This document shows, piece by piece, positions 1 through 35,792 of a stretch of DNA of 51,725 bases. The notes under the pieces were generated by a model, which did not search any database, was not told where the DNA came from, and saw nothing but the letters and a program-made list of their open reading frames with translations. The position numbers were made by a program, and so were the translations under genes. The stretch's first letter is position 1. Each line of letters starts with the position of its first letter. The DNA lies in the NCBI GenBank assembly GCA_001600615.1, contig BCKK01000001.1:1-51725 (forward strand). The letters are read 5' to 3'. The stretch comes from Dioszegia crocea. Taxonomy: Eukaryota; Basidiomycota; Tremellomycetes; Tremellales; Bulleribasidiaceae.

Positions 1-1126
1 GAAAAAGGTCAACAACCCAACCTTTCGCAAGGCGTAGAAAGGCTCAAGACCTTCAATAAAGGGTAGGATGCACAGGTTGATGACGGCGCAAACGGGAGCG
101 TAGTAGTGCAGCGATACAAGGGGATTCATCTGAGAAAATAAGCTATAGCTCCAGCTGTGTGTGGATTCATGAAAATTACCTTCAGTCCATGTAGAAGGAT
201 CTGAATCAATACCAGTCGACTAGCCTCAAATAATATACCGGCGCATTGGCATAAAAAGCCGAACATCTCAAAGTGGACTTCACCGTATGCGGCAAGAATA
301 CACCCGAGGGAGATAAGCTGAAGTATAAACTTAGTCCTCCTCTCCTAGGTGAGTCTTGTTTCATGCGCAGCTTACGCCAACGATAGCCAATAGACGAGAA
401 CTGGGTTTCTGGATCCGGAACGCGAAGGAGATAAGGAGGATAGCAACAGGGTTGAATGCCTGAGGTGTTCAGCTACTGCAAAATCGAGAGCAGACAAAGA
501 ACTGACCTTAAGCATTTGGATGAACGAAACCGACAATGACAGATACGCGTAGTTACTCAGGATTAAGGAGCCGGAGAAGAGGATGCCTATAGGAAGAATA
601 GACCGCACCCAGCGGTCTCGCTGCGTCGTCAGTGTCTGCTTTTTCTCCAGTACGAGAGGTGAATGAAGCCTACGGTCATTTCGATGTCTTTCGCGCCGTC
701 AACTAAGGTCGTTGTGCGTTGCAAGACTCGAGTAGCGATCGCCTTCGCAATCAATTACTTGCGGCAATGACATCCCCGTCACCGGAAATCTAGCTGACGT
801 ACCGAAAAAGTTAGATGCCATGTAGTCAAGAAGATGGGGTAGGGAAAGTCGAGGTTGGTGAAGACGAATTCTGTGGTGTCAGTTTCATCACGTAGTGTCA
901 GGTGTGACCCGCGACTGACTATTATACAGGATGACGGAGATTGAGCAGGCCATCCAAACAGGGATGACTAGTTTATATCAGCGTGATCTACAAAGCGTGC
1001 GGAAATGAGAGTGGTTTAACTTACTTATAAAACCTGGAATGGTAATTTGCTTCTGTCGCGCTCCTTGACAAGTGTCAAATCCTCCGCTTTATCGTCATTA
1101 TGGAACGCTGCGTACACGGAAGACAT
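1..1126 (-). CDS. Triose-phosphate/nucleotide-sugar transporter, 3' part cut by window edge
   Basis: A TPT-family (DUF250) transporter, expected in the Golgi or ER membrane moving a sugar nucleotide or phosphorylated sugar. Spliced exons read, in order: VIPVWMACSISVILYN (about 935-980), FVFTNLDFPYPIFLTTWHLT (about 815-855), an exon with ATRVLQRTTTLVDGAKD, then RSILPIGILFSGSLILSNYA (from about 606), AFNPVAILL, FEASRLVLIQILLHGLK and MNPLVSLHYYAPVCAVINLC near the left edge. These are hallmark TPT segments in the right order. The proposed start is the ATG at 1126 (MSSVYAAFHNDD), but the first exon junction is unclear. The intron after ...SFIQMLK is at the same place as in the paralogue at 34042-35792. 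The last transmembrane segments lie outside the window. Substrate cannot be told from sequence. Confidence 0.82.
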
Positions 1127-2886
1127 AATTGCGACACAGCAACTCACTTGACTTCTGATCGGGGTACACAAATTGCCTCCTGATCCACAGCAGACATGCT
1201 GGGCATGGACTACATCGTCAGCTTTTGCCACACCAACTCTGGGTCAGGATACATTTGGGTGTACAGGTTGTACGTTGTTGAATTCGTCAGACGCGCTCAT
1301 CTTGACGAGAAACTAACAAATACAGGCAATTCTACAGGTAGCCGATGCAATGAGGAAGGGTCAGGGCGATGGCAGTAGCGTATAGGCAAGCGTCTCCTCG
1401 ACGTCCTTTTGCGATAGCTGGAGTGAGCCTTCGCTCGTCGCTGAAGCTATGAGTGTCGGCGGACGCTTGATGCTCGGAGTATTCGGGGCAGCGACGAGAT
1501 GTTATAGGAGAGATGCATGAAAGTAACGCGGTCCACCCCGGTGTGTTGACGCGAAAATAAGCTGACGCGACGCGCGGGGCGTGACGTAATTTGCGTTCGC
1601 CGAGAGATGGGCAAGTTCGTGGGGTGAGTCGAGTGCACGTAAATCCAGCTATAAAAGGTCCGTTTGTCCTAACTAATTATCATTGGGGGAAGATTGGGTC
1701 TTTGGCGAGGATCGGTATATGGAAACGGTTTCGCCGGTGTGGCCCGGCGGAGGTCCTTTGCTCAAGGGCGTGCATATACATGGATGAAATCTTCAGCGAG
1801 GGAGGCTCAGGGGAGTGCCATGCGTGGGGGTGGCATTTTTCGCCCAGATGGAATTGCTTCACCAGTTGATGGCGGTCATCGCGCAGCAATCCTTATACTC
1901 TCCGAACTCTGTGCTACCCTTCCCTGGCCTAACAAGTCTTCGCCCGGTGGTCCGAGGCTATTCTCAAGTATGGGCTGGGAAGAGGGACGATGGATCATCA
2001 AAGAATCATGTCAGGTTTGACGTAAGAGGACAAGCTGGTGAGAACATTGATGGACAACGGATGGGACTCCTTTGTGGATAAGGTTCATTCCATCATTTTT
2101 TGCAGATGGCGAACGATTTTCGGCTCCCGGGTACCTTCAGAATCTTTCTACCGTCCGTTGATCGGTGCGATTTGGATCACCTTCTGTACTATTGGGTGAG
2201 GAGGAGAGTTCGGCGTCATCGACGAATCACTGGGGTGAGGATTACCATTTTGGGCCACATGTCTTTCCGTGTTGGTGACAGCGGCTGTTGGAGAAAGCCT
2301 GGACAACCTCTGGACGACCTCAAGACCGCTCGCATGGTGACAATTGGTCCCGACGCTGCCATATTTTATCGGAGGGGATTTCCACAACAGTCGACTTAAG
2401 TCTTTGCCATATTTTATGCATATGGCATTTTTCGAATAACCTCTTCCACCCCTTTCATCAGCCAGGTTCACAGATCTTCGTCCTCGTTGTTATCAGCCTC
2501 ACAGACATCTTTCTCACCCTGTAATTTCTTGACACATTCGGGAAAAAGAGTGTTCGATTCCTCCACCCGCTTCGACGCGTTTCTGTCTACACCATTTTCT
2601 CCGACCAGGAAACCGGAGAAGCTTATGGAGAGGAGATGGGCCAAGCTTCACCTCTGAACTTCTATCCGGCACGAATTCGTCCAAGGTCCCAGGAATTTAG
2701 CCGTGGTATGCTTGCGTGGGCGAAGTTGGGTAACATGTGTCCATATCCCTCTGCGGCCTGATGGGTGAGACGAGCTTGCGCATACGATCAAAGAGTTCCA
2801 TCTAAAGATAACTGGATATAACATCTAAGCGGAGACTCCAAGCCATGCCTTATGTCTGTCCGGGCCCCTTTGCCGATGCCGACAGC
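1127..2886. other. Intergenic, no supported gene
   Basis: Several 60-110 codon frames overlap here on both strands, but none shows a recognisable motif, exon chain or family resemblance. The stretch separates the transporter start from the UDP-glucose dehydrogenase 3' end and would contain the transporter promoter. Confidence 0.5.
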
Positions 2887-5357
2887 CTAGACACGATCCC
2901 CAGTTCCGATAGTGATTACCGTGAACCCGATTTCTTGCAGTTTCTTCCGATCCAGCATGAGTCGGCCGTCAAATACGAAAGCAGGTCGGGGACAGTTCGC
3001 GTAGACTGAGAGATTAGCGCTGATCTCTTCACTATCCAATGGCCCCATCTTTTTCAAGTTGCCTCTCCTGTTCATCGTCCGACGGGGTGTCCCCGGTCAG
3101 ATCCTGTGCAGAACCTTGATACTCACTCTTGGCCCAATCAAGCGACTTGAACTCGTCCCATTCAGTACAGACCACAATAGCCTCAGCGTTCTTGCACGCT
3201 TCCTCAGCAGATTGCTGGATGGACACGTGGGGTTTGACTGTAGGTCAGCATCTGGAAGGCGAAGGACTTACGAGGCTCGGCCGCGATCGCTCCGTAACTA
3301 TAGGCAATCAGTATATATAGACCACGCGCAGACATCTGCCTGAGCATTGCTCCAATTAGGCTAGAAACTCACTCGGTCAAATCAAGCCAGATCTGGTCCT
3401 CGCTAACCTGAGGATCGTAGATGTTGATGCGGGCCTTTTCAGACAAAAAGTGGCCAGCGATGGAGATCGCGGGGGATTCACGGGCTGCAAAGTCAGCAAA
3501 GACCGACCATGAGATAGGACAATGGCACGCTCACTGTCTCCGGTGTCCTTCTTGAATGCCCAACCGAGCATGGCAATCTTCTTGCCGGTAATGGTGTTGA
3601 ACAAGGTCTCGACGACCTTGTGGGCGAATCGGTCTTTCTGGTATTCGTTCTGAGGATCAGCGTGTGAAGTAGAGTACAAACGCAGAAGGAAGGGACGCAC
3701 CATCTCGACGACGGCACGCCAGTACTTTGCAACAGCTGGCAAGTGGAGGGATTCAGAAAGGTAAACCAAGTTAAGAATATCCTTCTGAAAACAAGATCCA
3801 CCGAAGCCCTATTCCTTTAGCATGGGTCTTGTTTGTGCACCTAAAATTCAACTTACAACAGAGGCCTTCAGAAACTTGGGTCCGACTCGACTATCTCTCC
3901 CAACGGCATACGCAACCTCATCGATATTGGCACCTGTGGCCTCGCAGATAGCCGACAAGGCATTAACTGACGAGATGCGCTGAGCAAGCATGGCATTGGC
4001 AGCGAGTTTTGATAGCTCAGAAGACCACAGACCGACAGTAAGGATTTTATCTTCCCTCATCCAGTTGGCGTAAACGGCGGCAAGGGATGCACATGCATCT
4101 AATCCCGATTTGGTTTGAAGAGAGCCGATGAGAACTCGGTCGGGCGCGAAGAGATCGGCGATGGCTGTGCCTTCTGCGAGGAATTCTGCGGGTCAGCAAA
4201 TTCTAATAACGAGAAGATGGATCAGGGAGAGGAGTGAAAATACAACGTTCAACAGGGGTGAAAATGGGGATGAGGTGTAATTTCACTGACCGGGGTTGGA
4301 AAGGATATCAAAGTTGCATCCGGGCTTAGAGTTGGCCTCGAGAATAGTACGCATGGCGCTGTATTGTCAGCTCAATTTCGGAATGGTCATAATTGTATAC
4401 CCTGGCTCACTCGGCAGTCCTGCATGGAACGGTCGACTTCTCGACCACAATTTTACTGGATGTGGATACTTCAGCAATTCGACGAGTGGCCAGTTGCAGG
4501 TAGCTATACAATCAGACCTGCTTGTATGGGCTCAAGAAGCCAATCCGTCAACTAGCTTACTTCAAGTCCGCAGCGAAACCTGCTCCGATACCAGACTTCT
4601 TTGTCGGTGTGTTGACCGAAACGAAGATCAAGCTGCAAAGTCAGCTACAATGCCTGTTCGAGACATGAGCATGTTCACGAATACTCACTCTGCCTCCGCA
4701 ATAGCCTTGTCGACATCAGTCGAGAAGAACAAATTACGCCCCCTTGCCTCCCTCACAACCTCGTCCAGCCCAGGTTCGTAAATCGGTAGATTGTCAGAAT
4801 TCCACGCATCGATTCGGGCTTTGTTTAAGTCGACAATGGTGACCTGGATGTTGGGACTGTGGGGTCAGCATAAGTTCAGGTTGGAGAGGTTTTAAGAAGA
4901 GGGGTGGTCGAGTTGCATCAGGGGGTTTCGCCCCGGTCAGAGAAGTTTGGATGTACCATTTCACAGCGCTGCACAGTCAGCTTGATCAATTGAAAGATTT
5001 GATCAAACAGCTGAGAGAAGACTTACATGACGGCGCAAGTGGGACCGCCTGAGATCATTAGTTATATAGATTCGAGAGGGCCGTGCCCAGCGTTTAGACT
5101 TCAAGCGAAGGGCAGTGCTTATGGGTCCCTAGAGATCAGACATACCAACATAACCGGCACCGACTAAGGTGGTCAGCTATGACGATATACCTAGCATAAA
5201 ATACCTCGACAACGGGAGATGAGAGCATGATGCTAAAGCCCGGAATTTTGTTTGAAAAGAACAATTTGCAGCATGGAGGACGGGGTAATCACAATCCGCT
5301 CTGGTAGACATATCTCAACTCACTGCAGCAGATCTTTTTGACAACAACGGGCGCCAT
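2887..5357 (-). CDS. UGD1: UDP-glucose 6-dehydrogenase
   Basis: Oxidises UDP-glucose to UDP-glucuronate with NAD+, a cytosolic step supplying glucuronic acid (and, after decarboxylation, xylose) to capsule and wall polysaccharides. The start at 5357 gives [11 protein letters not shown], followed after splicing by the Rossmann fingerprint GAGYVG (about 5150) and GGPTCAV (about 5040). Further exons carry [20 protein letters not shown] (about 4000), the active-site stretch [19 protein letters not shown] with the catalytic Cys codon at 3791-3793, and the C-terminal domain with [16 protein letters not shown] (about 3570) and [17 protein letters not shown] before the stop at 2887. About ten short introns break the gene. 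All catalytic landmarks I looked for are present, so it is probably functional. The symbol follows the Cryptococcus orthologue; I did not resolve every intron. Confidence 0.93.
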
Positions 5358-7561
5358 GTTCAGGATCAGTAAGCGAATCTGAGGACTACCGTAGAGTACC
5401 AAGGTGAGGTGAAGTGGTATGGCGCGGTGAGAGATGAATTTTGAGAAAGGTTGCCCATCTCGTGTCTCGCTTCTTTCGGATGCACCAAAGTCGCGTGTTT
5501 CTGGGATCGGCATTCGGTCCGGCTGCTCCCAATCGCAACCATTACCAATCGACGCTCAGACTCTTTACTATACTTTCCTATACATGGGTTGAATGCGTTG
5601 TCTGGTTGACGTATACTAGGTATGTTTATTTTGCTCAATTATATCGCCTTTAAAATCCTGCTCCCAGTGTCTTCGCTTAAGGATGGTTGATGGGGAGAGA
5701 AGAACTGTCGGGGGATGGCGCTGCGAGATGAGTTCGGGTGCAGCGCCGGGCAGCATTCGTGAAGGACGCGTGGATTCGTGCAGGAAGGAGAGTTTGGATG
5801 TGGAGCAGGTGTGAATCGATAAGTAGGATCCAAGGGGGTCGACGTATATCCTCACCTGGCGACCGCTATCGGCGTCCTTAGGCCGCGGTCAATCATTTCC
5901 CCCCTCCCTCCTTACCTCCTCTACCTCCTCCACCTCCTCTTCTTCTCGTCTTCCTTCCAATTCATGTCCGATGTTCGCAGCAAGGCTGATCGCCTGGCCG
6001 CTCCCCTGCTCTGCCGCCGCGGCCTTTCTGGTTTTGCTCGACCTTTCTTCGCGTATGAGGCCAGGCTGATTACCGGTGGGGCAGTTGGAGGGGCGATCGC
6101 TAGAGGAAGCAGGCTGGACTTGGCGTAAGGGACGGGCTGGTGAATGGACAGGACAGAGTAGGACGGGACGTTGGTCTGGGAAGATTCGCATTCGATCGTC
6201 ATCCCTCGGTCGACTGATATACATGTCCCCTACAAGATGGCCGGAGAGTGCATGGGTTTCAGCTTTACCATTTTTAGCAGGAGAGGGGTGTCATATGAGT
6301 CGTTGTGTGGAGTGGCAGGGAGCCGGAAGGAGGGCACGAGAGTTAAGTCCGGTGTGGTCGTTAAGGCCGACGGGCGTGAAACTGAATAGCAATCGTAACT
6401 CAATTACTGCTCGGGGTATCAAATCATGAAGGGAGTCGGGGTGACCTCCGAAACGCTGGTACTGTAGCTAATGGCTCTGAGATACGGTCCGCAATGATCT
6501 GCGACTCACTCCGCGTATTATCGCGGTTTGGGGATAGGGCTTCTCACCCAACCTTACCGCGTTCTTGCATGTAGCCCGTCCGAATCTCGCAGTGCTCCGA
6601 AGCGGGATAAGCGTGGTGGCGCTTAGAGAGAATGACGGCGCCATGTTGTCATCAAGACTGACGATCGGTCACATTCCGAATTGATAGAGGAGCTCGAGGA
6701 GGGGTGGCGGAAATTGGGCGGTTCGCACGGCAGCACAGTTGCGACTAGCATTTCCCTCTGGGTCGAGAGGAGTGCTGACAAGCCGAAATGCTCTAGGTAT
6801 AGAGCTCGGGAACGTTCGAGATCGTCGGAGTACGGGGTTTGAAGCCGTAGGGTAATGGGAAAGCAGCTGGATTGCAGTTCTGCATGTCGTAATTGGTAAT
6901 TCGATGTAGTGGGATTACGGCGTGTTTAGCTTTTGGGTCTCCCTCTTTCTCAGATTTGAACGCCTGGGAGTGATTGGCTCCTCCTCCGTCTTCGCACTCG
7001 GAAATTTGTACAGGGCTGCTATGGGTACGAGCAGGTCGGAGGTGGAGGTAGAAGCGATCATCTGATCAGCTGATCTTCTGATCATCGTCGTGGACTAGGA
7101 GAATTCCAATGAGGTCGCCCTGCTGGTAGACGTAGGAGCAATGACCGGAGTCAGTAGGCTTGGATCCATTCGATGCTGGGAAAGTGTCGAGAGCTCTATT
7201 AGAGAGGTGTGAAGATTGCCTCAGACCGTAAAGGTTTCGGTCTCAGCCGTGGTAGCATATTCGCAGGGATGCCGCTGCCCGGGGGACTGGGGCTTGGACG
7301 CAGATTTCGCGGTCGATGCCGTCGTCAAGGAGAGCCCCAGGGCATCCGACTGGTTGACTTCGAGGCTCAAGTAATTGACGAGGATGAGGAAGAACTGGAC
7401 GGAGACTTTATGAGCGACCGACGACTAGCTCGGCGCAACCCAGACCAGCCATCTGCCCGTAGCCTTTACGACCATTCGGCCTCATGCGTGGCAACCTGGC
7501 CCCTACTCCCTTGAACCTCCGAGTGTACACCCATCGTACCTCTGCGGATCTCTGTCCGGCA
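5358..7561. other. Long non-coding stretch with pyrimidine tract and TGATC cluster
   Basis: No supported gene. It includes the dehydrogenase promoter, a CCTCC/CTTCTC pyrimidine-rich tract at about 5897-5950, and a cluster of TGATC/GATCA words at about 7055-7090 that can fold on itself. A 101-codon frame at 7209-7514 contains an acidic patch (DEDEEELDGDF) but no family signature; I do not call it a gene. Confidence 0.45.
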
Positions 7562-8408
7562 TCAGGAAAGACTTTCCACTAGTTTTGTGTGTCGCGCCAC
7601 CCAGTGCTCGTTGCTGATGTCTTTTCGCTCAATATAGCGCCTCAGTATATCTTTAGCTTTCAGCAATGCTGCTGGTATGTGCTTAGATTTGGCGTTAGGG
7701 CAAGAGACAAATATATGGTACTCGTCAGTTTCGGTTGCTGGTAGGTCGTACATGATATGATGCATGGATACTATACTTCGGAACTAATTCCTGACCTACC
7801 CAATCGGGCAAAGCTTTACGTGATAGTGGGCCGGCCTTGGGTTGCGCCAAGGTCGGTGGCAACTGAGAGTTAAATATCTCTCTGCCCCGGATAACATATA
7901 ACTGCACCACACCATAATGATAATTGCACCACACTCCTAAGGAGAGTTACCGCTTTCGGTAATCTGTAGAGTTCCGGGGGACCACCAAAATCCCAACTTT
8001 GAGCGTTCCTCATGCAACTCTATGCATACAAAGTCCCAAATATTAATCGATATTCGGACTCCCAGACACCTACATGTATAGTGTAGCAATTTTCAAAATA
8101 AAATGTTGATGCATGCACAAGTTACTAAGTGAAAAAGTGTGGTGCAGTTATAATTAACGTGTGGTGCAGTTATATGTTATCCTGCCCCGGTTAGTATATT
8201 GAGGCAGGTAATTCATGTCTGGTGGATTACAGTGGTCAGAGTTTGATGTCACGTGTTTGAGGGTTTTTTTCAATAAAATTAAAAAAACCCTTACCAGGAA
8301 CAACCTAACCAAACACTGTGAGAACTGCGGATGTAGTCGATATGGTTTCTGTTCGACACCTGATATAGGGCCCAGATATCCATTACTTCTCTGCAACTCC
8401 GCCATCAA
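7562..8408 (-). pseudogene. ORF fragment, possibly LINE C-terminus, interrupted by a MITE
   Basis: On the minus strand, a frame ending PDMNYLPQYTNR at the right side of the MITE continues as GREIFNSQLPPTLAQPK on its left side if the MITE and one target copy are removed. Further on, after an apparent frameshift, comes ETDEYHIFVSCPNAKSKH (about 7700). That phrase resembles the H-x-(L/F)-x-x-C-P zinc-binding tail seen after the reverse transcriptase and RNase H domains of non-LTR elements, which is my basis for the tentative LINE label. No reverse transcriptase remains. It ends next to the start of the GT23-like gene. Confidence 0.35.
7889..8182. mobile_element. MITE with double-box terminal inverted repeats
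   Basis: Both ends carry the same inverted sequence: GGATAACATATAACTGCACC at the left, its complement at the right, followed inward by a second TGCACCACAC box in each arm. The outer flanks share TGCCCCGG on both sides, consistent with an approximately 8-bp target duplication, although GG/CC at the junction leaves the exact edge ambiguous. The interior has no coding capacity. Removing the element and one flank copy restores a continuous reading frame in the interrupted ORF. The terminal architecture closely resembles the right end of the MULE at 33131-33173. Confidence 0.85.
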
Positions 8409-8409
8409 A

Positions 8410-9983
8410 ATGCGATCTCACATATGGCAAAGAACCGTGATGGCCCTGAGTGTGACCCTCTTAGCCCTCTTCCTACTCGCCTTTTACACCGGCGACCCTT
8501 TGCTACACATTCAGTCGACTCCGCCCCAGCCAGCGTTTCTCGAGGACGACCAGACACCCTACAGTCGGCAGGCGTGGATCCCTGGTACAGGAAAGTGCGA
8601 AAGGACCCTTCGTATAGAGCTTAGTTTTGATTACGGTCTTGGGAGCTCGCTCATCCTTCTGATCGTAAGTCTCATCTTTCTTTAGAACTGCCCTACCTGA
8701 CGCAATCCAGCTACCTGGCCTCGCAGCGGCGCGTCATCACGGCTTTACCCCCCTCATCGATGAATCGAATTACAATTACGGCCGGATGACGGATTACTTC
8801 AAACCGATGCAACTGGATTGCGACCCTGGCGATGACTGGCGGACGGTGTCCGCGGTTGCATTCGGTGCGGATGGCTGGGAGACCGCTGATCACGTAACCA
8901 TCGCCCGGAACAATATGCTTTTAAGCCGGGAGCATTCATCTGTGGACGAGTTTTGGCGCAACTCGTACATGCTTTACGGCCAATCCGCGAGCGTGAGGCG
9001 GACCGATAAAAAGGCTTTGCACGATGCTTTCAATTCTATGCCGTATCTCCCGAGCGAAATGACTTTTACTCAAGGTGAGTTGCTGCTTACTCTGCTCAGC
9101 ATTCGCGCTGATATCTGCTTCAGCGATGCGACCGGCCTTCCGAGCAGCCTACCCTCTTCTGATGCAGCTCTTCTCCCTCAATCGCGTGATGCTCGCGGAG
9201 GTGGAATCACTGGTGCAAGAAACGCGAGCCGCCAGGGAACAAGGCGTGCCTGTACTGGGCGCGATCGTTCGATTAGGGGACAAGGAAAGAGAAGCCAGCT
9301 GGAACGTGAGTCTCGAAGGCGGTTGAAGCGGTTGCCCGCCGCTAGTCATCCCAAATCTCAACACTGTATCCAACTTTAATGGAAAGTGCTGACGCCTTAC
9401 TCAGCCCGGAGCCAATGCATTTGCCAATTGGCACGGCTATATCGAATCTGCCAAAGAGCAGCTCGCCCTTCTCACGCTTGGTCGGGAGCGCCGTCACAAT
9501 GGAACCAAGGCCATCCTGAGGGTCATGTCTGACGACATACCACGGGCTTTGGATGGGTTGATGAGCGCAGCCGGGAGCGAATTGTTCGATATTCAGCCTC
9601 TTGACAAAGGCGTCGGGCTGATGTCATTGGACGAGTCCGACGATCGATACGAATCGTTACCGGCAGGCTTTGACCCACACAGCATTCACATTGGCGGGCA
9701 CGAGCAGGGCGCATTTAATCGTCAGCCGGTCACCCTTCGAATCGCGTCGGCGAGAACTTTCATCCGAGACCTCTATTACATCGCCAGACACACCGATAGC
9801 CTCGTTGCTAGCTCAAGCAGCAATGGTGGACGGGTAGCCCTGCTACTCGCGGGCGAGGAGAAGGCGTATGGTACCTCGCAAGTCGACGATGCGAGTCCCT
9901 TCCAGTCGATAGGCGGTTTATCGAGAAGTCTAGATACGCGATGGTTCCCATGTGTGTGGTATGCGGGCTGCTTCCAGGAGTAA
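8410..9983 (+). CDS. GT23/FUT8-like glycosyltransferase, type II membrane protein
   Basis: Four exons (8410-8664, 8711-9074, 9124-9305, 9405-9983) splice into an open frame of 459 aa. Residues about 8-28 form a signal anchor (VMALSVTLLALFLLAFY), so the enzyme is probably luminal in the Golgi. Family evidence: LIDESNYNYGRMTDYF in the N-terminal half; IVRLGDKEREA, which matches the GDP-fucose-binding HVRRTDK motif of FUT8/GT23 with the first Arg kept but the second replaced by Leu; and DLYYIARHTDSLVASSSSN near the C-terminus, matching the conserved segment where FUT8 has SQADFLVCTFSSQ. Donor is probably GDP-fucose by family, but the altered motif means another donor is possible. The next gene downstream on the same strand is the GT2 enzyme. 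Confidence 0.68.
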
Positions 9984-11430
9984 TGTCGATGCAGAAGAAA
10001 GGCGTTTTATGATGCGGAGAAGGGCTTGCGACGGCATCCCAGAGAAATGCACGCAAAGTGGCGACAGTGGGGGGAAAGCATGGAAGAGGATTCGTTCGGG
10101 ACAATTTAGGAGTAGCTTGAGGATCTAACAGGGAATATGAACATCAGGTGGGAAGGGATAGAGGCCTTGATGGGCTGGTTCGGGGAGGATATTGAGAGAT
10201 ACGTAGGATAGTGGGAGAATGGGGTATAGTGAGGGGGGTTGAGGGAATGCCTCCCACCCTCAGTCGGAGCGAAGCATAGGGGAACGGAAGGAGACGTGAC
10301 TTGGAGAGGTTGGAGAAGGACACCTGTAGTGGTTGCAGGCGGTCCTGTAGTGGTTGCAAGCGGTCATGAGGAGATCAAAAGGGCTGGAGCTGGCGGACTA
10401 CGCAACACGCAGATCATCTTGCGGGTAAATAAGCTTGAGTTTGAACCCATTGCATGCCAAGTTGCTCACGAGACGCACCTTCAAAGCAGCCGGCGATCTC
10501 TATCGCCTCAGTGATCGAGTTAGTTTTTGATCAGCCAATGCTGTGTCTGGTTCCTCGTCGCCAAACTCACATCTCCGCTGCCGCCCATGCTCGCACCTCC
10601 TTATTGCAGCATCTCATGACAGTAAAAAAGATGATTTCTAGATCGACGAGAGCAAGGTCGGAACCTGGAAGTCAGTCGACAAGTCGGAGGCGATGCGATA
10701 CTTGGTGTCAATTCATTGCGATGTCAGGTATTACTACTTCGGCAATATCTCCCTCTCTAACTTCACAATGTGCTGCCACTTCTGCTTTGGCAAAGAATGT
10801 TTTCAACTTCTTGTTCGTAATATGTATGTACTCGGTCAATAGGCTTCTCAAAGCTGCGAGCCAGTTGCGATGGCCGATGTGGGAATTTGGAACGCCATCC
10901 AGCGATCCAGTAAAAAGACAACCATCAACATCCAATGGCCTTCCATCATGGCGTTTCCCCCTCCATATCATTGGTCAAGTCCTCTCCTTACCTGCATTGA
11001 ACGCCGGGTCATGAAAATTTGAATTTAGCCACACAATCGAATCAATGGCACCGCTACTGGTAAGGACAGCAATAAATCCGGGGAGGTGTACCTCCCTAGG
11101 TGTACCTCCCTTGCGCATTCGATCGAAGCAATCTTCTTCACCCGCTGTGAAGAAGTGACAGCCGAAACATGCTGTTCCTGCGTCTGTCGACCGCGGTAAC
11201 TCGTGGAATGTCTTTTGTACGTTGAGCGGAGGGGGACCTGTCGTTCCATCTGACCTGGGCAACTACAGCGCGAAAGACTGAGAATAATATTTCTCGTAAT
11301 TGCCGGTAGCGGTCGGGCCTTTGTGCAGCTTGGTGCCACACATAACGATAACGCCGATATAGATTCCAGTTGTCCCGCTGGACAGATAGGCGACCCTTGC
11401 ATTAGAGTCCGATCACCCGCAAAACATAAC
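9984..11430. other. Intergenic; unassigned coding-like minus-strand fragments
   Basis: No intact gene is recognised. On the minus strand two pieces look coding-like: one around 10990-11230 containing STDAGTACFGCHFFTAGEED and IDSIVWLNSNFHDPAF, followed by a possible donor, and one at about 10708-10960 with LRSLLTEYIHITNKKLKTFF. I could not join them into a family I know, so a decayed or unrecognised gene is possible. A 21-bp unit is repeated twice in tandem at about 10322-10366, and a GGGAGGT/ACCTCCC inverted repeat lies at 11081-11096, about 335 bp before the GT2 start. Confidence 0.35.
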
Positions 11431-13725: not shown

Positions 13726-13911
13726 TACTAGATGAATATTCTCATCGATGTGAAGATGTATTGAGCTCGTCTGCCTGTCATGTGGCCCGCAGCCTGTTCG
13801 GTTGTTGCCATGGTCCCATGACCAAGTGAAACCGGCGAACTCGTGTATCCTGCCTCGACTCCCGGTATTACGTCAGCCTCCACGGGCACATTCCTCCTGC
13901 TATATCCCACA
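13726..13911 (-). repeat. Solo-LTR-like repeat, copy 1
   Basis: An approximately 186-bp sequence present three times in the window (also 26593-26776 and 51390-51573). Read on the minus strand it starts TGTGGGATATA and ends ATATTCATCTAGTA. The TATA-like site seen in the other copies is degraded here, and no flanking duplication is evident, suggesting an older copy. Confidence 0.6.
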
Positions 13912-17384: not shown

Positions 17385-17425
17385 CCCGAGATGGCCTAGC
17401 CGGTGATGCCAAGATCTCAGAGCTA

Positions 17426-18784: not shown

Positions 18785-18785
18785 G

Positions 18786-22541: not shown

Positions 22542-23184
22542 TGATGAGACCGATCAGATGCGTGGAGGGAAAGGGTAGGTACGTGGTGCGGGAAGTCGAA
22601 AGGGTAGATATAGAGCAAGGTAGAGAAATGGATCAAGAGCGAGCAAATATCTTTAGGAGCACTCCGGAGCCTAGACTACCTATATGATGTTCGTCAAGAG
22701 CGGAATGAAACTCGACTGGCGCCGAAGCCAGTCTGAGTAGAGCTCTCGTGATGGGGTAATGGTTGTTGTAGATTTAGAATATGTATGTACGTACGTCATG
22801 GCTGTAGTGCGGACCAGCATCCTGCCAGCTGATCAACTGTAATTGGACCTCAACCTATAGCGTAGTCGGTCCTGGGGTGTTATCGCTGGGAGTGGGTGTT
22901 CCTCGTGTGGGTGTCCCTCGTGCCCCGGGAGAAACCACTCGTATAACAGAGGAGTGCGCACGAAGCGGAGTTCCACCAGGATACACGGAGACGAAGGGAA
23001 GTGGTCGTGGATGATGAAGAGGATTTATCTGAGTTTGGTGAAGGCGAGGGCGCGGACCATGACGTGGTAAATAATTGAGTTAGCGTGAACCTCATCCCGT
23101 AGCTCGTACAGTACTAAGACACATGCACTTGACATAATACTTTCATCCTGTATTCGATCTTTCCACCGGAGTGACCAAAGCCAA

Positions 23185-26592: not shown

Positions 26593-26776
26593 TATTAGAT
26601 GAATATTCTCAGCGATGTGAAGATGCATTGAGCTCGACTGCCTAGTATATACCCCGCAGCCTGTTCGGTTGACGCCATCTTCCCATGACCCAGTGAGAGT
26701 AGGGAACTCGGGTAACCTGCCTCTACTCCCGACATTACGTCAGCTTCCACCGGCACATTCCTTCTACATCCTAACA
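26593..26776 (-). repeat. Solo LTR, copy 2, with 5-bp target duplication
   Basis: A 184-bp unit starting TGTTAGGATGTA and ending ATATTCATCTAATA on the minus strand. It is flanked on both sides by ACAAC (26588-26592 and 26777-26781), a perfect 5-bp direct repeat as expected for LTR retrotransposon integration. It contains GGGTATATACT, a TATA-like promoter site. There is no internal coding region, so it is a solo LTR. It lies about 470 bp beyond the GT18 stop codon. Confidence 0.8.
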
Positions 26777-27241
26777 ACAACGACTTCCCGATATTCCGCA
26801 ATTGGGGACATATCAGGTCTGGAGTACCATGACCCATACCGGGTTCGGATTCAGGTGACTTCTCCTCATCACTAGCGACGGCCGCAGTCCCGCGCATTGT
26901 TCCCGTTCAATTGTGATCTGAAAGGCGTCAAGTGTTACTGATAGGGTATGCAAACACAGCTCCCACTCTTACTTCGTTGTCACTGTATTCGTTTTGCGCA
27001 TACGGATACTCAATAGTTTGATACTACTCCACTGACCGTGGTTTGACAAAACGACACATGAAACAGATGACGACCATCGTTGCCGGTTCATTTACCTATA
27101 ATCCCCGCTAAGCGATAGGTGGCTTGCCTCATTGAACTACTTCCGCCGCCACACAGAGGGACAGGTATGCGCGCCTTTGACCGCTGTGAGCATTTAAAGC
27201 AGATATCGTTCCTGTCAAATGTCAGGAGGATCTCAGGGAGC

Positions 27242-29089
27242 TCAAAGGGGTCTCACATTTGGCCCAAAGAGTTCAGGGAACATCCTGGATGCGTCTTGCC
27301 TCCAGTCGCGCTGGACCATTTCCCTGTGCCTTTGCGCCGTCGCTTCCAAAGTCATAGCTGGAGCTACATACCATTAGCAGAGCCTGGTAGTAAAACACGA
27401 CAAGCCTTACGGATAAACCGGTCTATGGGATTCGCCAAAATTGCCTGAATGGCCTCCTCTAGTTCGAACTCGCTCTTCTCGAGCTAGCGGATGAGATTCG
27501 GCGACTTGGCATGCTGACGACCGCCACTCACGACATGGTAGACATAGGGAGGATCAAGAAATTTAAGCGCATCGTGTTGGGTTTGCCAGTGTCTCCTGTC
27601 ATCCGGCGCATCGCGATTCCGAGCGTAGAGGCTAAGCTGTAAGCGTTATCGATTACGACTCAACATCATACACGTTGATCACGGGAACACCTGTATGTTA
27701 GCTTTCATTGATAATGGTTGTTAGGGTTTTTCATACCGAAACACATTGCATCGTATGCTATACCATGTCAGTCTCTTACAATCTTGCGCGATCCGGCTTA
27801 CGTGAAGGTGACAAGAACGGTCGTCCAATCATTAACTGGATGGTAAGCCTCACGACAGGCAGAATTAAGCCTAAACTCACCATAAATTTGCTCTCCGCCA
27901 GCTCTCTGAGCCAGTCTTCCCTGGGTTGTTGACCGATGTTTCTGACGCCAATGCTGGCGTCAAGGTGTCCGTCCGCAGTCGCAACGATCTCGAACGAGCT
28001 ACCCATATCATCAGGCTCAACACGAGAAATGATTTTCGGCAACAAGCCAGGCCAGGAATACGTTGATCCGGAACCTGAACGGAAGTAATCGGCTCGCTTC
28101 CCCAAAGCGAGCCCTCGATGACGGCGGTGATGGTGTGGCACGAACGGTATCGCAGTGCACCGATCTTCCACTGAGTAACCTGCAGATGAACGATCGACTT
28201 AATGAAGCATATTTTGAGACTTACCGAGATAATTATTACCGATATTATGCTTGAAGTGGCCCCAATCCTCGGGACCAACTGTCCACAACTTCCCCATCGG
28301 GTGAGCGGCGAATTCCCACCACACCCACGCCATCATCTTCCACAGCGGTATACCTCCCTCGTACCCCGTTGTCTTTACGCACCCATGGCGACCTGGGGTT
28401 TGCCAATCGGTAGAAAAGCCTGAAGCTTTGTTCAGGTCGAGGAAGTTTGACCCATTACGTCGTAGGCAAGATTCGAGAGTGTCGGGCTGAACATAGAGAA
28501 GCCGAACGAGCTCCGGAATCAAAGAATGGATAAAGTCCATTTCGGTGTCGGTAAGAGCGTAAAGAACTGTGTGGTGCAGCCCGTCAAGCGCAACTTGCAT
28601 GGAATGAGCCCTGTAATCAGTTCTCTTGAAACGATCGCGACCTACCATATCTCCTCCCCCGCCATCCATCCCATGCGAGCCTGCGCTGGGGACATCAGCT
28701 GGTTGATGATCGAGCAAATCACCGTGTGATGAGATGGAGAAGGAACATACAGAAGTGGTGACTGGCGAGAATGACCACCTGGTCTTGTCCTTCTAAACAG
28801 CTCTTGGCCTCCAGGCAATCCCCTAACGCGTCGAGGGCCATGTAATTGAACACCGCGGCATCGTGGTTCCAGCCGAGGCTATAGTAGTCCCTGAGTCTGC
28901 TTCGCAGGACACGCACGGAGGCGGCAGCGCTGTGCGAGCCTGTATTGATGAGACGCGTAAGATTGCAGACTCACTGATCGACCGCCCTCCGGTCGAGACC
29001 CATAGCTGCCGGAAAGCGAATAAGACAAGTGACGCCAATGCCACCCTTACATAGAACTTGTAGGATCTTTTACGGGATTTATCGCCCAT
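27242..29089 (-). CDS. GT18 (MGAT5-like) beta-1,6-GlcNAc-transferase homologue
   Basis: Ten exons from 29089 to 27242 splice into an open 481-aa product: 29089-28975, 28939-28751, 28698-28225, 28179-27881, 27835-27802, 27757-27737, 27690-27672, 27631-27532, 27483-27411, 27363-27242. It begins with a basic tail and signal anchor (YVRVALASLVLFAF). Hallmarks are GCVKTTGYEGGIPLWKMMAW, LWTVGPEDW, NNYLGYSVED (made across a junction), SKFMLMIGRPFLSPSPYDAM aligning with MGAT5's donor-site segment, KFLDPPYVYHV, and a C-terminal RFIPPAMTLEATAQRHREMV. MGAT5 enzymes transfer GlcNAc in beta-1,6 linkage to mannose in the Golgi; whether this one acts on N-glycans or another polymer is unknown. Several introns are only 35-45 nt. 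Confidence 0.82.
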
Positions 29090-29838
29090 AATGAGAAGTG
29101 GGAAGATGTCAGATGTCATGGTGCGAGAAACGCATACGCCCATGATCAATGATTGTGAACGGGTTTTGGGCAATATAACAATTACTTCCGTGAGAAACAT
29201 AGCTTAATCGACAACCCAATACCGTATCTTGGTTATAATACGTCAATGACCTCAAAACACGACAATGTGCAACGAGAGGAGGTTTGGTTTCACGATTCGA
29301 TGTTCTGTACGGAAATGCCTTCAACCAGATGACATCGTGATAGGTGAGAGTGAATAATGCGAAAGGATCCGCCGTCATGCGATTGGCTGTTTCGCAAGCC
29401 TGCTTACGTCATACACTTGGTCTTTGCCCTAGCCGCCCGGATAAGGAGATGATCTGTAGGGTTGTTTTCCCTGTCCGATGGTATTCAACACAAATTTTGT
29501 CTACGTATCGCGGTTAATCACTATACGCTCTCCGACCAGAGTAGGTTTCAATTCTAGAATATGAATTCGGCGGGCTGATTTGGGAGCGGCCCAACCGACG
29601 AGACCCTGCATGACGGCACTCGCCTGCGCCGCGAAAATCGGTTGATGTGATGCATGGAAACTACTACTTGAGGGTTCGTTGGTGGCAGATTTCGTAATTG
29701 TCAACGGGCGATTTTAGCTACAGGGTTTGCGGATGACGGCAGACCGCGTCCGTGTCTGCCGAAGATCCCAAGCCTAATGTTGACGTTGCCACGTCCGCCG
29801 CGTGAGTTTCAGATACCTAAATACTTACTGATGGATAG

Positions 29839-30291
29839 ATGATGGAAGCACTCCTGCTCCTGGCCAGCCGCTATCTCGACCCCGACTCCCGTCGTGAATA
29901 CAAGACACACAGAAAGCAGAACGATGGTGACGCTGCCTTCGACAGCAACTTCAATCAGATACACGACAAGTATCTCAGAAAGCAGATTCGCTGCGATCGC
30001 GAGGATTTCGTCGATCTTTGCAACAAGCTACGAGGCCACTGGGTCTTCCAGAGCATCGGTCAAAAACCTCAGCCGAAAATAGAGGTGCAGGTGTTTGTGG
30101 TGTTGTACAGATTTGGGCATAACGGGAACGGGGCGAAGGTGAACGACAGCGTTTACGATTCGGAGATTTCTGGTGAGCATACCTTTACAGCTGTGTAGAG
30201 TTTATGGCCAAGCACGTGCTGATTTCTCAGAGGGCTCAGTCCTCAGATACACTAATCGGGTCATCTACGCGATCTGCGACTGCCTCGAGCC
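29839..30291 (+). pseudogene. Harbinger/PIF-type transposase fragment (N-terminal part)
   Basis: Starts MMEALLLLASRYLDPDSRRE and contains FVDLCNKLRGHWVFQSIGQK, PQPKIEVQVFVVLYRFGHNG, a phrase typical of fungal Harbinger-like DDE transposases, followed after a probable intron by FSEGSVLRYTNRVIYAICD. The frame ends near 30291, just where the oppositely oriented MULE reading frame ends, and the DDE catalytic domain is absent. It is probably truncated by the neighbouring element. Confidence 0.65.
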
Positions 30292-32868
30292 CGCCAACCT
30301 GTGCTGGCCGACTCCTCTTTGGCGGTATACAGATCGCCATTGTCGCCCTCGCACAGCCAGTCCACCACGAATTGATCCAGGTTGGTATTATTGTAGATAC
30401 CTCTTCCCTTCCTATGGACGGCAGTACGACTACCAGTGCCTGTCTCCTCGTTCTCGTCCTCGTCCTCATCCTCGCCACATAGCCCATCTGTAACTCCAGC
30501 GGCAGTCATGGCTTGCCCAGAAGGTGCGCTTGGAGCGGGCTCGATGCGATCCGGGGTGACGGAGGGAGCACAGCCTCGGCGAGAGGTCTGCAGACCACCG
30601 TGGGATTGCGGTGGGGGTGGGGGAGAGGAAGCGAAGGCGGAAGGATCATGGGGAGAGAAAAAACGATCTGCGTAGGGCTGTTGAAAAGCAGCACCGTTGT
30701 GAAGCTGCTTGGAATGCTGATGCTGACTCTGCTGGAGATAACGCTGCTGCTGCTAATGCTGTGGATGGTAGAAAGGGACATATTGGGGGCGAAAGATAGG
30801 TCGGCGGTGTCTGTGAACCTTCTTCCCTTCCTGCGGATGATGGGATAACCCGTGCTGTGGAGTGTAGGGATGGCCCTGGTTGTACGCGGCAGGGGCGGAC
30901 GAGCCTGGTTGTCTTCTTGCATAATGTCTGTAGCGAGCTGGAAGTTGAGAAAAGAGTAACATGCGAACAAGAAATCCAGTCGCGTACCGGTGTCGACGCG
31001 ACAAGCTTTCGAGATAAGATAGTAGTGTTCGGCGAGGTTCGGCAGAAATCGGCAGCCGTGGCCTTGTCCCATTGGGTGGGATAAGGGACGACTGGACTTC
31101 CTACTGCCCCGCCCGATCCTCGGCGATCGATGGATTAGGTGGGTCAACTTCGCATCCTGTGGGCCAACTTCGCATCCTGCCGGAGTTGCCCAAAGAAGCG
31201 GTTAAGCTTTTTGTTTGTGTCCCCTCAGAATGGTGTAGAAGTTTTGGAGGGATCGAGGTATGCCTTGAGAGCACGATGTCGACCCTCAATCCTGGAGTTG
31301 GCACGTTGACCCAGATGGGTATACTGATCGATTGAGTACCAGCAAAAGTGCTCGTACTCGCCATGCGCCAGCAGACCGAGAGCGTAGTCGATAGGGTGGC
31401 CTAACGAGATGCCATTGATGGTGACGTTCCAGGCATCACGGAACATGGTAATGGCCTCGTTTCTGGCCTCGGGTGCCGGTGGCTGGACATCACACTGATT
31501 CCAGTGATTGTGGAAGGAGCTGAGCTCAGATGACCACTTCGGACGATTGTTCTCATCCTTGAGATCTCGGTATATCGCCTTGAAGTCTTTCGCGCATTCG
31601 CCTTTATGTTCTCGACGAGGTGCCAAAGGCAGCGTATCCGGAAAGCGTTAGGGAAGAGGAGGGTTATAGTCGAGTGCAGTGCCTTCTCCCCCTCCGCGCA
31701 GATGTCTCCACCTTCTCCCCAATCTCCCCACCCATAGCCTCCAAGAAAGCTGACAGCCCTCGCAGGTACCAGTCTTCCTTCTCCGCAAATAGGAATACCA
31801 CGCCAGCAGTGAATGTATTGTTTGGGCTGGTGAAGCCGACGATGTGGAGCATGGGGAGTCCGTACAGATTGGTGGAGTAGGTACAATCCATTAGGAGGAC
31901 CGTGGGGAACTGGTGTACAAGGCCTAGTACAGTCCCTTTCTCCGCCCTGAACACCCTATACAGGTTGCCCGGATCTTCCCTCATCTTGATGACAGCCGCC
32001 TCCACCGCCGAATGACCACCTCTCTGCTTCAAACGATGACCGTAACGCTCAAACCATATGTCTCGAGTGATGAGCCGGAGCTTCGGGTAGGTCTCGCTCA
32101 TCACCCGCATATAATCCTTGGTTCGCAAACCCGAGACAGATGCTTTCTCAGCTCTTCCCTCTGTTCCGGCTTAATCCTTCTCATGTACGCAATAATTGAG
32201 GTGGTGAGGGGAGGGTGATTATGCTCCTCACAATTTTCCTCCACCTCAAATCTCCATCTACATCCCTTGCTCAGATCCGCCCGCTTTCTATCCCGATTCC
32301 CATCCTTGCAGTTGATCTCGAATGGACAACCATCTTTGTGAGATGCCCTGTCCCTCCCACCCATCTCAGTCCTACGTGGCTGTGAGCCTTTGACACACTG
32401 CAGGCGCAGCCTCCCTTCCTTCGAGTCAGAGCGCTTGGTTACCAAGCAGACTCCCTGCTCTTCTATGTACGCCTGAAGATAGTCTTTCATATCCTCCCGA
32501 TTATAGAACACGGCTGGTGGAGGGGGATCGTGAACGAGGAGTAGCGATTCGTCCTCCTCAGCCCATACATATGGGGCAGAGGAGACTGCGTGAGAGTTGG
32601 TGTCAGGGGGCGAGAAGCCAGCGTGGGTGGCAGGGGATGGGGAGTTAGCTTTGGCGGCGGCACCGGGCTGCTGCTGCTGCTTGAGGCGAGCAAGAGCGTC
32701 CTTTAGGGATATGAGCAGAGGGGAGTCGTCCCGATCGGATCTGTCATCTTCTCTCGCGTCCTGCTCGTCCTCTTCGTCTTCTTCGTCGGATAGAAAGCAG
32801 TCTTTGTGGGGCAATGGAGGGAGATGCGAAGGACGAGGCAGACGGCGGGGACGCGATTGTTGACGCAA
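30261..32868 (-). pseudogene. MULE transposase, frameshifted
   Basis: Starting at 32868, an acidic N-terminus (CFLSDEEDEEDEQD) leads to a FAR1-like zinc region (GCPFEINCKDGNRD ... CEEHNHPP). The MULE core follows in another frame (YPKLRLITRDIWFERYGHRL; VLLMDCTYSTNLYGLPMLHI with the first catalytic Asp; FLFAEKEDWYLRGLSAFLEA), then NAFRIRCLWHLVENIKANAR in a third, and WSSELSSFHNHWNQC, HLGQRANSRIEGRHRALKAY in a fourth. At least three frameshifts (about 32130, 31700, 31600) break it. A Gln/Ser/Pro-rich tail runs to 30261. The right terminus is probably 33131-33173; the left terminus was not found. Confidence 0.8.
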
Positions 32869-33130
32869 TTGAGGTCTACGGCGCCGAGGATCGCCCGAGA
32901 CGGAAAGGAGGAGGCGCGGGATGATTTAGGGGGCGAGCGGACAGGGCGAAGCATACTCATACGTTGTGTCTGCAAGTGTACAAACTAGTTTGGGCACTGT
33001 CAAAGAGTTGTAGATTCACTCTGGACTAAAAATCAGACGCGACCCGTCGCAGTCAACATGCACGCGCACAGATGAATTCCGACCAGGAAACAGCAACGGA
33101 ATTAAATAAAACCGGAATTCCGGCCGGACC

Positions 33131-33400: not shown

Positions 33401-34041
33401 AACTACGGGTCTGCAGTCTGCAACATATATAAGAAGCGAGTTCTGTTGTCATCTTGAAGCCTCCGAATCCGGCTAACAGGCAGCTACCGCACTGATTGAT
33501 TTGCCAATGATGATGGTGACTTCTGCACATTGGACGACCAAGAGATCCAGAGACAGCCTAAGTCGACGTTCCACTGCATAGCAACCTCAATGTGCAGCAA
33601 AAGGTCTTCATCGCGCACCCGCCTTGCCTGAGACACCTTTATAAAGCAATAATCTGCTATAGTGTCGGCATGATTCACTCTCTAAGTCGTTTTGCAACTG
33701 CGTCTGACTATCCCGACCCTAAACCTTTCCGCATGATGTCGACTCGCCATACTCCGAACTAAATCGGTACATGCCGGCCTCTACACGCCGGCCACCTCCC
33801 ATCGCCTTGTCCTGCCCTCCTCCTGCTCGACCGATCATCCGCCTGATCCGGAGTGTGCAATCTGGAAATCGAAGGCGTATTTTGAGATCGTAGATTAGGT
33901 CCGGACGACCTCTAGTGACGGGTGAAAAAGTAGACTGTCCCCATCAGCTACTTTTACTCCGATCGCCTGCAGAAATATGAGGCCAGGCACGACGCACGAG
34001 CACCCAAAATAAGCAAAATAATCCCCGATCCAGCGAAGGCC

Positions 34042-35792
34042 TTATTCTTGAAGCCGGTATTGATGTTCCGGCCTCTGAAGCGCGCCAAAGCAGGCGGTAT
34101 AGCCCGTATCGCCTTCATTGGGAGAGCCTGCCCCATCAGTACTCATCATTGGGTAGACGGGGCGGGCACATACGAAGATCCCCTGAGTGAATCTGACAAG
34201 ACGCCGTCCATTTGGCGTATTAGGAGATCCATCAGTCAGGCGGAGAGTCATCAAACCCGAAACAGCAATAGCGTAACCTAGCATTAGCGTCATCATCGAG
34301 AGGACATGCCGATTATTTGTATACAAGAAATGTAGGAACCTATCACCCACGCTAGGCAGATAAGAATGACGTCCTTCTTAGTCAGACATGGTGCGGGTTT
34401 ATGTGCCGGAGGACACACCTTTCCAACACCCGACAGGGTCAATACGAGACTTCCAGCTGAATCGATCAAGAAGAGGCTGGCGATATTTAGGCAAAACGCA
34501 ATAAGGCCGTTCATGATCAATACCGGGGCGCCGACACGGTAGAGGTTGTGAAAGGGAGCTGATCCCTCTACGAATGGCAGGCAGACACTGATCAAAGCCA
34601 AGCAGACCTGATGATCAGCATGGAAGAGGATGAGAGTAACAGCATACCGGAGCATACATGGCGATACTGCTCAGAGGATCGAGCCTGTAATCTTTTAGGA
34701 TGATCTGAATGAGAACCAGGCGGACTGATTCGACCTGAACATCAGCTCGGTAGCGCCATGAGGAGCATTGGCCGTGACCCACAACCACTGCCGCGACTTG
34801 ACAGATGAAACCAAAAACCGCGAACTTGATTTCACCGGCTGCAGCGATGAGGCAACCGAATGCAGTCACTACGACTACACCAAAGAGGATATGGTTGTAC
34901 TCTGTTTATCAGTACGTTCTATGTCAAGCAATGGCCTGTAACTACCTTGAATCCCCGCGGCGAGCTGGATGACAAGGGTGAAGATCGGAATGAATGCCTG
35001 AACCATTAACCTCAGGAAGTGACCCGGATCAAGTTACTCGCCTTGAGCATTTGCACAAAGCTGACGTTGAGATAGACGTAGGCCATATTGCTCAATATGA
35101 GCGATGCGGAGAAGAGTAGACTGAGAGGCAGGATAGTCTTGGACCATAACGACCACTGAAGATCAGCTTGTCTCTTCCCGCATTTATCGTTAGAGCTCAC
35201 ATTCATCGGTATGCGCTTCGCCTTCAATCGCTCGAAAGGCAGCCGCTCCAAGATTCTCGTTCCGAGAGTGGCGACTAGCATGTGATAGGCTGTCATGAAG
35301 ACAGGCTGTTGTGTGAGCTTAGAGGAGAATTCGGACATACGTAGGCAAAGTTGAGATCTGTGAAAATGTGCTTGTTGAGCAGGATCAGCCCTCCACTTAG
35401 CCCAATCTGGTGGTGAGTCCCGCAATTCCGAAGTCTAGCATACGACATACCCAGATGGCTATCTCTATTAGCCATCATTCACAAATTTCTTATGCGCGGC
35501 CAGACTCACGTATCACAATTTTAGCAGGCATAATTGTTCTCCCAAGTGGTTGTTCTGGACTAGCTCCACCAACACCCAGGGATTTGGCCTTTTGATCACC
35601 ACGCGCCGTGAAACGCGCTGCCTCTTCCTTCCCAACCTCATCCTCTGGCTCTTTACCATAGCTACTCCGCAAGGAGCTAATCGCGCTCGTCCCATTCCCG
35701 GCGTCATCGTCCGGAACCGACTGGGAGTTTTGCAATGGTAATGGCTCCTTCAGTGCGAGAAACGCGGGGTCTTCTCCTCCTCCTGGATCCAT
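34042..35792 (-). CDS. Triose-phosphate/nucleotide-sugar transporter (paralogue 2)
   Basis: About eleven exons give roughly 440 aa. A polar cytosolic N-terminus (MDPGGGEDPAFLAL...) is followed by a 14-nt microexon and then GLSGGLILLNKHIFTDLNFA, VFMTAYHMLVATLGTRILER, LSLLFSASLILSNMAYVYLN, AFIPIFTLVIQL, EIKFAVFGFICQVAA, SVRLVLIQIILKDYRLDPLS, LFLIDSAGSLVLTLSGVGK, DVILICLAWVIGSYISC and YAIAVSGL, the full TPT order with about ten membrane segments. Two introns appear to use GC donors: after ...FVQMLK (GCGAGT), where the paralogue at the left edge has GTCAGT at the same position, and before YAIAVSGL. The C-terminal tail (to the stop at 34042) is unusually long and polar. Substrate unknown. Confidence 0.85.

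Follow-up and report, generated by a model that had tools for sequence, protein, structure and literature searches.

The clustering of fungal polysaccharide genes has a published precedent in the galactosaminogalactan (GAG) cluster of Aspergillus fumigatus, which comprises gtb3, agd3, ega3, sph3, and uge3 (PMC4817252, PMC7329490) and is also described in one basidiomycete, Trichosporon asahii (PMC4817252), with a MULE transposase near the cluster boundary (PMC4817252, PMC7329490). For the glucuronoxylomannan (GXM) of Cryptococcus, the enzymes Ugd1 and Uxs1 and the transporters Uut1, Uxt1, and Uxt2 have been described, UDP-glucuronate and UDP-xylose need transporters there (PMC5773217, PMC5790919), and CAP10 has been assigned to family GT90 and CAP59/60 to GT69 (PMC8355462). 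Tremella makes a fucose-containing GXM-like polysaccharide (PMC8355462, citing de Baets and Vandamme 2001), and a GDP-L-fucose synthase is predicted in Tremella and Cyphobasidium genomes (PMC8355462). Here we describe the start of contig 1 (C1) of the Dioszegia crocea genome, where genes for UDP-glucose 6-dehydrogenase (UGDH), nucleotide-sugar transporters of the TPT family, and several kinds of glycosyltransferase lie together in what may be a dedicated glycan-assembly locus. The stretch analyzed, hereafter the window, is C1:1-51,725 (forward strand; C1 spans 3.59 Mb of a 20.57-Mb genome in 17 contigs), to which we added C1:51,726-101,725 and C13:1-20,000.

Like the GAG cluster, whose genes serve one extracellular polysaccharide and are patchily distributed, this region links sugar-nucleotide enzymes with a set of glycosyltransferases, and it likewise contains dedicated precursor enzymes (an extra UGDH, with UDP-glucuronate decarboxylase [UXS], GDP-mannose 4,6-dehydratase [GMD], and GDP-L-fucose synthase also present). 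Unlike the GAG cluster, which has five genes, among them a deacetylase and a hydrolase, and a galactose/N-acetylgalactosamine product, it holds 19 gene models, a predicted product with glucuronate, xylose, fucose, mannose, and N-acetylglucosamine, a precursor cassette present three times, and ordinary genes in between; no deacetylase or hydrolase was among the Pfam results of the models scanned in C1:1-101,725 and C13:1-20,000. With the Cryptococcus GXM pathway it shares the route from UDP-glucose through UDP-glucuronate to UDP-xylose, transporters into the secretory pathway, and GT90 enzymes, but here the genes are clustered and repeated, the GT69 loci lie elsewhere, and GDP-fucose genes, a GT18, a GT15, and a PLOD-type glycosyltransferase are added. 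The Tremella polysaccharide is GXM-like and contains fucose, as predicted here, and the excerpt of PMC8355462 describes no gene cluster for it. Among the matches listed from the open-licence PMC literature (titles and starts of abstracts), none reported a cluster like this one. The best explanation is that the region belongs to a known class, fungal polysaccharide clusters such as that for GAG, and that what is new is a variant with other sugars and a repeated precursor cassette. Cryptococcus capsule genes are dispersed, although our literature search returned no paper on the point. The first-pass annotation of the window had held that fungal polysaccharide genes in general are usually dispersed; clusters do occur, the published example being that for GAG (PMC4817252).

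Glycan-synthesis genes at the start of contig 1

Counting weak, cut, and broken members of our own models, we found that glycan genes make up 19 of the 27 non-transposon models in C1:1-101,725 (19 of 25 when two weak family-less models are set aside). Eight of the 19 are members of the repeated cassette, and about 12 distinct kinds are represented; the other non-transposon models are five ordinary ones (39.1-49.6 kb), a RING-finger gene, and the two without a family. As a control we took the 30 longest exons from 30 of 71 modeled genes in 17 of 19 other 10-kb samples of the genome, and at a threshold of E 1e-4 none of the 30 matched a family of glycosyltransferases, transporters, or sugar-nucleotide genes, a comparison made less sensitive by its use of single exons and a threshold stricter than that applied to the spliced models of the region; 15 of the 30 matched no family at all, and two were glycoside hydrolases. 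If glycan-type genes are assumed to be 2% of the genome, the probability that six given genes are all of this type is ~6e-11. The linkage of glycan-synthesis genes is beyond chance, though it is split by the five ordinary models, and the high density noted in the first-pass annotation was borne out. The 36-kb run that it had proposed is real and in fact extends as far as C1:101.7 kb or further, and onto C13 as well; it is not unbroken, however, but consists on C1 of two stretches (1-35.8 kb and 55.9-101.7 kb).

Six of the seven glycan genes originally recognized in the window, namely UGDH, two TPT transporters, and GT2, GT15, and GT18 enzymes, are supported, with margins that vary: the evidence is clear for UGDH and GT15, GT2 lies barely above its cut-off, and TPT2 and the hand-joined GT18 are barely below theirs. 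Introns are short and numerous (497 in 84 modeled genes over 252 kb, median 59 bases), and because the exons are short, little was found by Pfam on stop-masked frames. The window UGDH carries three Pfam domains (205.6, 101.9, and 98.2 bits), scores 334.3 bits with NCBIfam TIGR03026 (cut-off 189.8), reads open over 449 amino acids once one splice site is shifted by hand, and shares its exon structure with a copy on C7. C1 begins within the TPT1 gene; the part in the window scores 27.4 bits with PF03151, and the C-terminal part on C13, where the exons are complete at C13:7761-8653, scores 43.7 bits, above the cut-off of 30. TPT2 scores 26.5 bits, below that cut-off, although the exons of an entire TPT protein can be read by eye.

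For the GT2-type gene, PF00535 gave 24.0 bits against a cut-off of 23.3, and no relative was found in the PDB at E 0.1. The divergent GT15 scores 56.4 bits with PF01793 (cut-off 25) and matches PDB entries 1s4n (E 1.2e-11) and 5a07 (E 2e-11); among the PDB entries matched in this work are human enzymes, Kre2/Mnt1, and MGAT5. On a hand-joined model GT18 scores 26.7 bits with PF15024, slightly below the cut-off of 28, and its identity is secured by an ortholog and by a family profile: it shares 53% identity over 98% with Kwoniella newhampshirensis protein P0004, which itself bears PF15024, and a profile of eight relatives with the window protein left out matches MGAT5-type structures at E 8e-17. 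The tblastn pieces against P0004 run from 28931 to 27254, with stops confined to stretches gapped in the alignment, and the family includes proteins of Agaricomycetes as well as that of K. newhampshirensis. A weak, divergent GT18-like stretch also lies at C13:16664-16918 on the reverse strand (tblastn E 0.03 with P0004), where a short model has no Pfam match; the glycan set may thus continue there. 

The seventh gene, labeled GT23-like in the first-pass annotation, did not confirm as a fucosyltransferase. Its protein matched no Pfam or PDB family, and FUT8_N_cat appeared weakly (E 0.27) in one of four family members. Scoring 7,996 candidates preselected by shared five-residue words yielded three relatives, of which Rhodotorula accounts for two; the structure predicted for one, P0001, from three relatives had a pLDDT of 33.5, too low for a fold search. 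The sole PDB match of the family profile below E 0.001 was to an entry for the protease PfpI (75 positions, E 4.6e-4), which we discarded by judgement as unrelated to transferases. The claim that all four transferases are open and anchored holds in part: the best 19-residue hydropathy was 2.38 for GT2 and 1.71 for the GT23-like protein, a borderline 1.47 for GT18, and 1.99 for GT15 only in another frame (23089-23469), with a start near 23185. That each family occurs once is true within the window; genome-wide, exon-by-exon searches overlook divergent genes (they missed the window GT15 and the GT90s of the region), making copy numbers lower bounds.

Beyond the window end, at a distance of ~4-39 kb, lie GDP-L-fucose synthase, GMD, and UXS, so that both genes of the de novo GDP-fucose pathway are present in the region. 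GDP-L-fucose synthase scores 163 bits with NCBIfam GDPFucSynFcl, below the cut-off of 500, and its model probably lacks the first exon; UXS matches UDP-glucuronate decarboxylase 1 (PDB 2b69, E 7.4e-103). These genes, together with the repeated cassettes, strengthen the original guess of a glycan with glucuronate/xylose and a deoxy sugar; its GT23 part is not supported.

A UGDH-TPT-UXS cassette present three times

By self-comparison, a unit of UGDH, TPT, and UXS occurs three times, with pieces 85-100% identical, and because the copies carry introns we attribute their spread to segmental duplication. The N-terminal domain of UGDH was found in the window, on C13 (identical to the window), at C1:72k and C1:98k, and at C7:64k; with that further copy on C7, the UGDH genes of the cassettes count as extra. 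A search for the GMD-type family returned nine loci outside the region, of which C2:3225k may be the ordinary UXS.

Between the UGDH of the window and that of copy B (C1:97k) there are 23 synonymous and two non-synonymous differences (omega 0.026), and between the window and C7, with the first exon unaligned, dS is 0.79 and omega 0.021. Over the last seven exons of TPT, omega is 0.063 for C13 versus B and 0.091 for B versus A, while C13 and A differ by six synonymous and no non-synonymous changes; over the last six exons of UXS, B versus C13 gives 0.047 (copy A left out). With omega values of 0.02-0.09, the compared copies are under purifying selection rather than decayed, save for the UXS of copy A. 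From its family, the TPT of the cassette could carry either UDP-glucuronate or UDP-xylose.

Copy C is composed of sequence from the window and from C13. Window positions 1-8183 equal C13:93-8275 on the reverse strand with zero mismatches, and the TPT1 exons on C13 lie inside and past this identical overlap. C13 may be the missing left neighbor of C1, or it may be a copy. The first 95 bases of C13 (C13:1-95) recur at C13:21107-21201.

Possible products of the linked genes

The reading to which we lean, with only modest confidence, is that the end of C1 and its continuation onto C13 form a dedicated locus of ~100 kb or more for assembling a glycan with glucuronate, xylose, fucose, mannose, and N-acetylglucosamine. 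The region carries UGDH, TPT, and UXS three times over, GMD, GDP-L-fucose synthase, further transporters, and as glycosyltransferases GT2, GT15, GT18, three GT90s (one weak), a PLOD-type enzyme, and the family-less GT23-like protein. In the pathway that we propose, UGDH, UXS, GMD, and GDP-L-fucose synthase would make UDP-glucuronate, UDP-xylose, and GDP-fucose in the cytosol, TPT1 and TPT2 would move these into the Golgi/secretory pathway, and the anchored GT15, GT18, GT90, and other enzymes would assemble them into one glycan, most simply a fucosylated GXM-like polysaccharide that is secreted or displayed at the surface. The additional gene copies would increase the amount of precursor available for this product, leaving the separate UGDH on C7 untouched. 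That the genes function jointly we infer from their sequences and linkage.

Several observations weigh against such a locus. The five ordinary models cut the run in two, the RING-finger gene sits within the second stretch, and the run as a whole also includes RPL34, RPS30, a prephenate dehydratase, and transposons; the UXS of copy A (C1:79-80.8k) is broken, a ~187-bp repeat having split it; and the control, as noted, was the less sensitive side of the comparison. GT69, the CAP59 family (PF11735), marks capsule synthesis in Cryptococcus; it was absent among the scanned models of the region, though exon-wise searches can miss divergent genes, and four GT69 loci lie outside it (C7:361k and C1:338k, 800k, and 1066k). 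If the locus is what we suppose, dispersed genes might make a backbone that it decorates, or it might make a different glycan. GMD is common in other basidiomycetes; the closest among the matches listed is from Saitozyma podzolica (83%), Saitozyma being the sole Tremellomycete recognized among the best 120 matches, which are partly unnamed. For GMD and GT18 the nearest relatives with a name thus come from different Tremellales (Saitozyma and Kwoniella), and the genes may therefore not move as one set. The GT23-like enzyme would be the expected user of GDP-fucose, yet is unproven in that role. Given the nine family loci, UXS and GMD may have further copies elsewhere, and this, with prephenate dehydratase mid-run, lowers our confidence.

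The genes might instead act on protein-linked N- and O-glycans, to which mannose would be added by GT15, N-acetylglucosamine by GT18, fucose by the GT23-like enzyme, and xylose by GT90, with no polysaccharide made. MGAT5-type and 1s4n/Ktr4-type enzymes act on protein glycans, and these are the structures that the GT18 profile and GT15 match; GT15 and GT18 would fit protein-linked glycans too, and the product may be either a heteropolymer or a decorated protein glycan. We nevertheless consider a purely protein-directed role unlikely, as fungal N-glycans would offer no evident outlet for the UDP-glucuronate of three UGDH copies, support for the GT23 label is lacking, and neither GT2 nor the PLOD-type enzyme has a clear role in protein glycans. 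About equally improbable, in our judgement, is a contig-end duplication hotspot in which transposons and segmental duplication gathered and multiplied unrelated glycan genes of separate pathways. Copia-type and MULE elements are present, a ~187-bp repeat occurs six times within C1:1-101 kb, a 294-bp element recurs in six further copies of 100% identity, the cassette copies did arise by duplication, and housekeeping genes lie in between; but a hotspot would not readily account for ~12 different kinds of glycan gene rather than one amplified family, for purifying selection on the compared copies, for two enzymes (UGDH and UXS) that catalyze consecutive steps, or for none of 30 control exons elsewhere being of these families.

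Hardly credible is an assembly artifact or contamination, with a chimeric contig end put together from foreign or wrongly joined sequence. C1 does start inside a gene, 8,183 of its bases recur unchanged on C13, and long N runs occupy 51726-55250 and 72820-76454, but the genes are as intron-rich as the rest, the repeats are common to C3, C4, C10, C11, C13, and C17, housekeeping genes lie inside the region, and UGDH has the exon structure of the C7 copy.

A bolder form of the dedicated-locus reading, which we put forward tentatively and think more doubtful than the locus itself, is that a contig-end region of ~100-170 kb, made up of C13 and the start of C1, is the equivalent in a fungus of the capsule loci of bacteria. 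It would unite most of what is peculiar to a fucose/xylose/glucuronate surface polymer, would have repeated precursor cassettes and transporters to itself beside the glycosyltransferases, and would perhaps evolve by duplication of the UGDH-TPT-UXS unit; all of this is equally tentative. Should the genes serve a single product, a large share of the enzymes behind a complex basidiomycete heteropolysaccharide would be found in one place, including the linkage enzymes, which are hard to find where capsule genes are scattered. Fungi of the order of Cryptococcus would then be able to gather polysaccharide genes and a dedicated precursor supply, as is done for secondary-metabolite genes, and the predicted fucose content offers a simple chemical test.

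Other features, gaps, and repeats

With one gene-model setting applied across the whole region, the models of score ≥5 between 1 and 35.8 kb other than the glycan genes are confined to retroelement and MULE pieces and two models without a family (Table 1). Within the copia-type pieces, Retrotran_gag_2 (copia-type gag) scores 40.5 bits in 17426-18655 on the reverse strand, and two further frames have no match.

Table 1. Positions of genes, cassettes, and mobile elements (positions without a contig name are in the window)
Feature	Position	Strand	Details
Cassette A	C1:71.2-80.8k		
Cassette B	C1:87.8-100.3k		inverted
Cassette C	window 1-7.1k + C13:1-11.6k		
TPT1, TPT-family nucleotide-sugar transporter	1..~1300	-	truncated by contig start; model 1-1197; N-terminal exons by eye
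UGDH	2887-5357	-	~15 exons, 449 aa; last exon 2887-3005
GT23-like gene (label not confirmed)	8440-9983	+	four exons, 449 aa; N-terminal hydrophobic stretch
Model without family	10106-10588		99 aa; no Pfam match
GT2-type glycosyltransferase	~11208-13140	+	hydrophobic stretch; 3' end 12466, 12653, or 13140 depending on model
Copia-type retroelement pieces (outside glycan set)	14460-19000	-	contains N run 17607-17816
Second retroelement piece (outside glycan set)	20098-20286	+	SH3_retrovirus 46.2 bits
GT15 (KTR/Mnt1-type mannosyltransferase), divergent	~23185-24799	+	5' end by eye
GT18 (MGAT5-type)	~27194-29100	-	~10 exons
Model without family	29650-30482		208 aa; nothing better than E 0.07
MULE transposase piece (outside glycan set)	31664-32960	-	PF10551 28.1 bits, cut-off 27.6
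TPT2, second TPT-family transporter	~34240-35500	-	ends by eye
Small protein (gene model)	39065-39790	-	signal-like N-terminus by eye; no Pfam match
RPL34	40669-41528	+	PF01199 130.3 bits
Large gene	42852-46776	+	~1,085 aa; no Pfam match
Prephenate dehydratase-like gene piece	47007-47829	-	PF00800 36.3 bits, cut-off 25.2; weak gene model, score 3.5
RPS30	48740-49587	+	PF04758 45.4 bits; snR60-type snoRNA RF00309 within, 49408-49498
GDP-L-fucose synthase	C1:55.9-57.8k		PDB 4e5y E 1.4e-103
GMD	C1:58.8-60.2k		TIGR01472 593.1 bits, cut-off 415
MULE transposase	C1:60.7-62.1k		43.7 bits
GT90, first	C1:65.6-67.2k		44.4 bits
RING-finger gene	C1:68.1-71.2k		
UGDH (copy A)	C1:71.2k-		interrupted by N run
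TPT (copy A)	C1:76.5-77.4k		
UXS (copy A)	C1:78.9-80.8k		
GT90, second, weak	C1:82.4-85.2k		15.6 bits, under cut-off 24
PLOD-type glycosyltransferase	C1:85.9-87.4k		31.2 bits, cut-off 27
UXS (copy B)	C1:88.9-90.5k		
TPT (copy B)	C1:92.8k-		
UGDH (copy B)	C1:96-98.7k		
GT90, third	C1:101.0k-		26.2 bits
GMD-family loci outside the region	C2:3225k, C1:193k, C4:12k, C6:1598k, C2:2802k, C10:349k, C1:833k, C1:2552k, C7:555k		

Runs of N at window 17607-17816, C1:51726-55250, and C1:72820-76454 resemble scaffold gaps, and the window ends exactly at the start of the second of these. By the end of C1 we mean the end of the contig; a search restricted to one telomere type, TTAGGG with spacers of 0-3 bases, found no such pattern in the genome. 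Canonical GT15 genes with identical scores lie at C6:14105-15179 and C14:8556-9630, less than 16 kb from the contig starts; this pair resembles that of C1 and C13, which raises the possibility that contig ends overlap or are duplicated.

The 294-bp element lies at window 7889-8182 and has inverted ends of ~47 bases; its other copies are on C1, C3, and C11, besides C13, and their complete identity indicates recent movement. The ~187-bp repeat, which is self-complementary, is found at window 13726-13909, 26593-26777, and 51390-51574 and at C1:78.4k, 80.1k, and 90.8k, which are its six places within C1:1-101 kb, and also at C13:14.0k and 25.7k; C4, C10, and C17 carry more copies. A perfect hexanucleotide repeat, TGGGTT, in 7.3 copies at window 47359-47402, encodes an Asn-Pro run in the prephenate dehydratase model.

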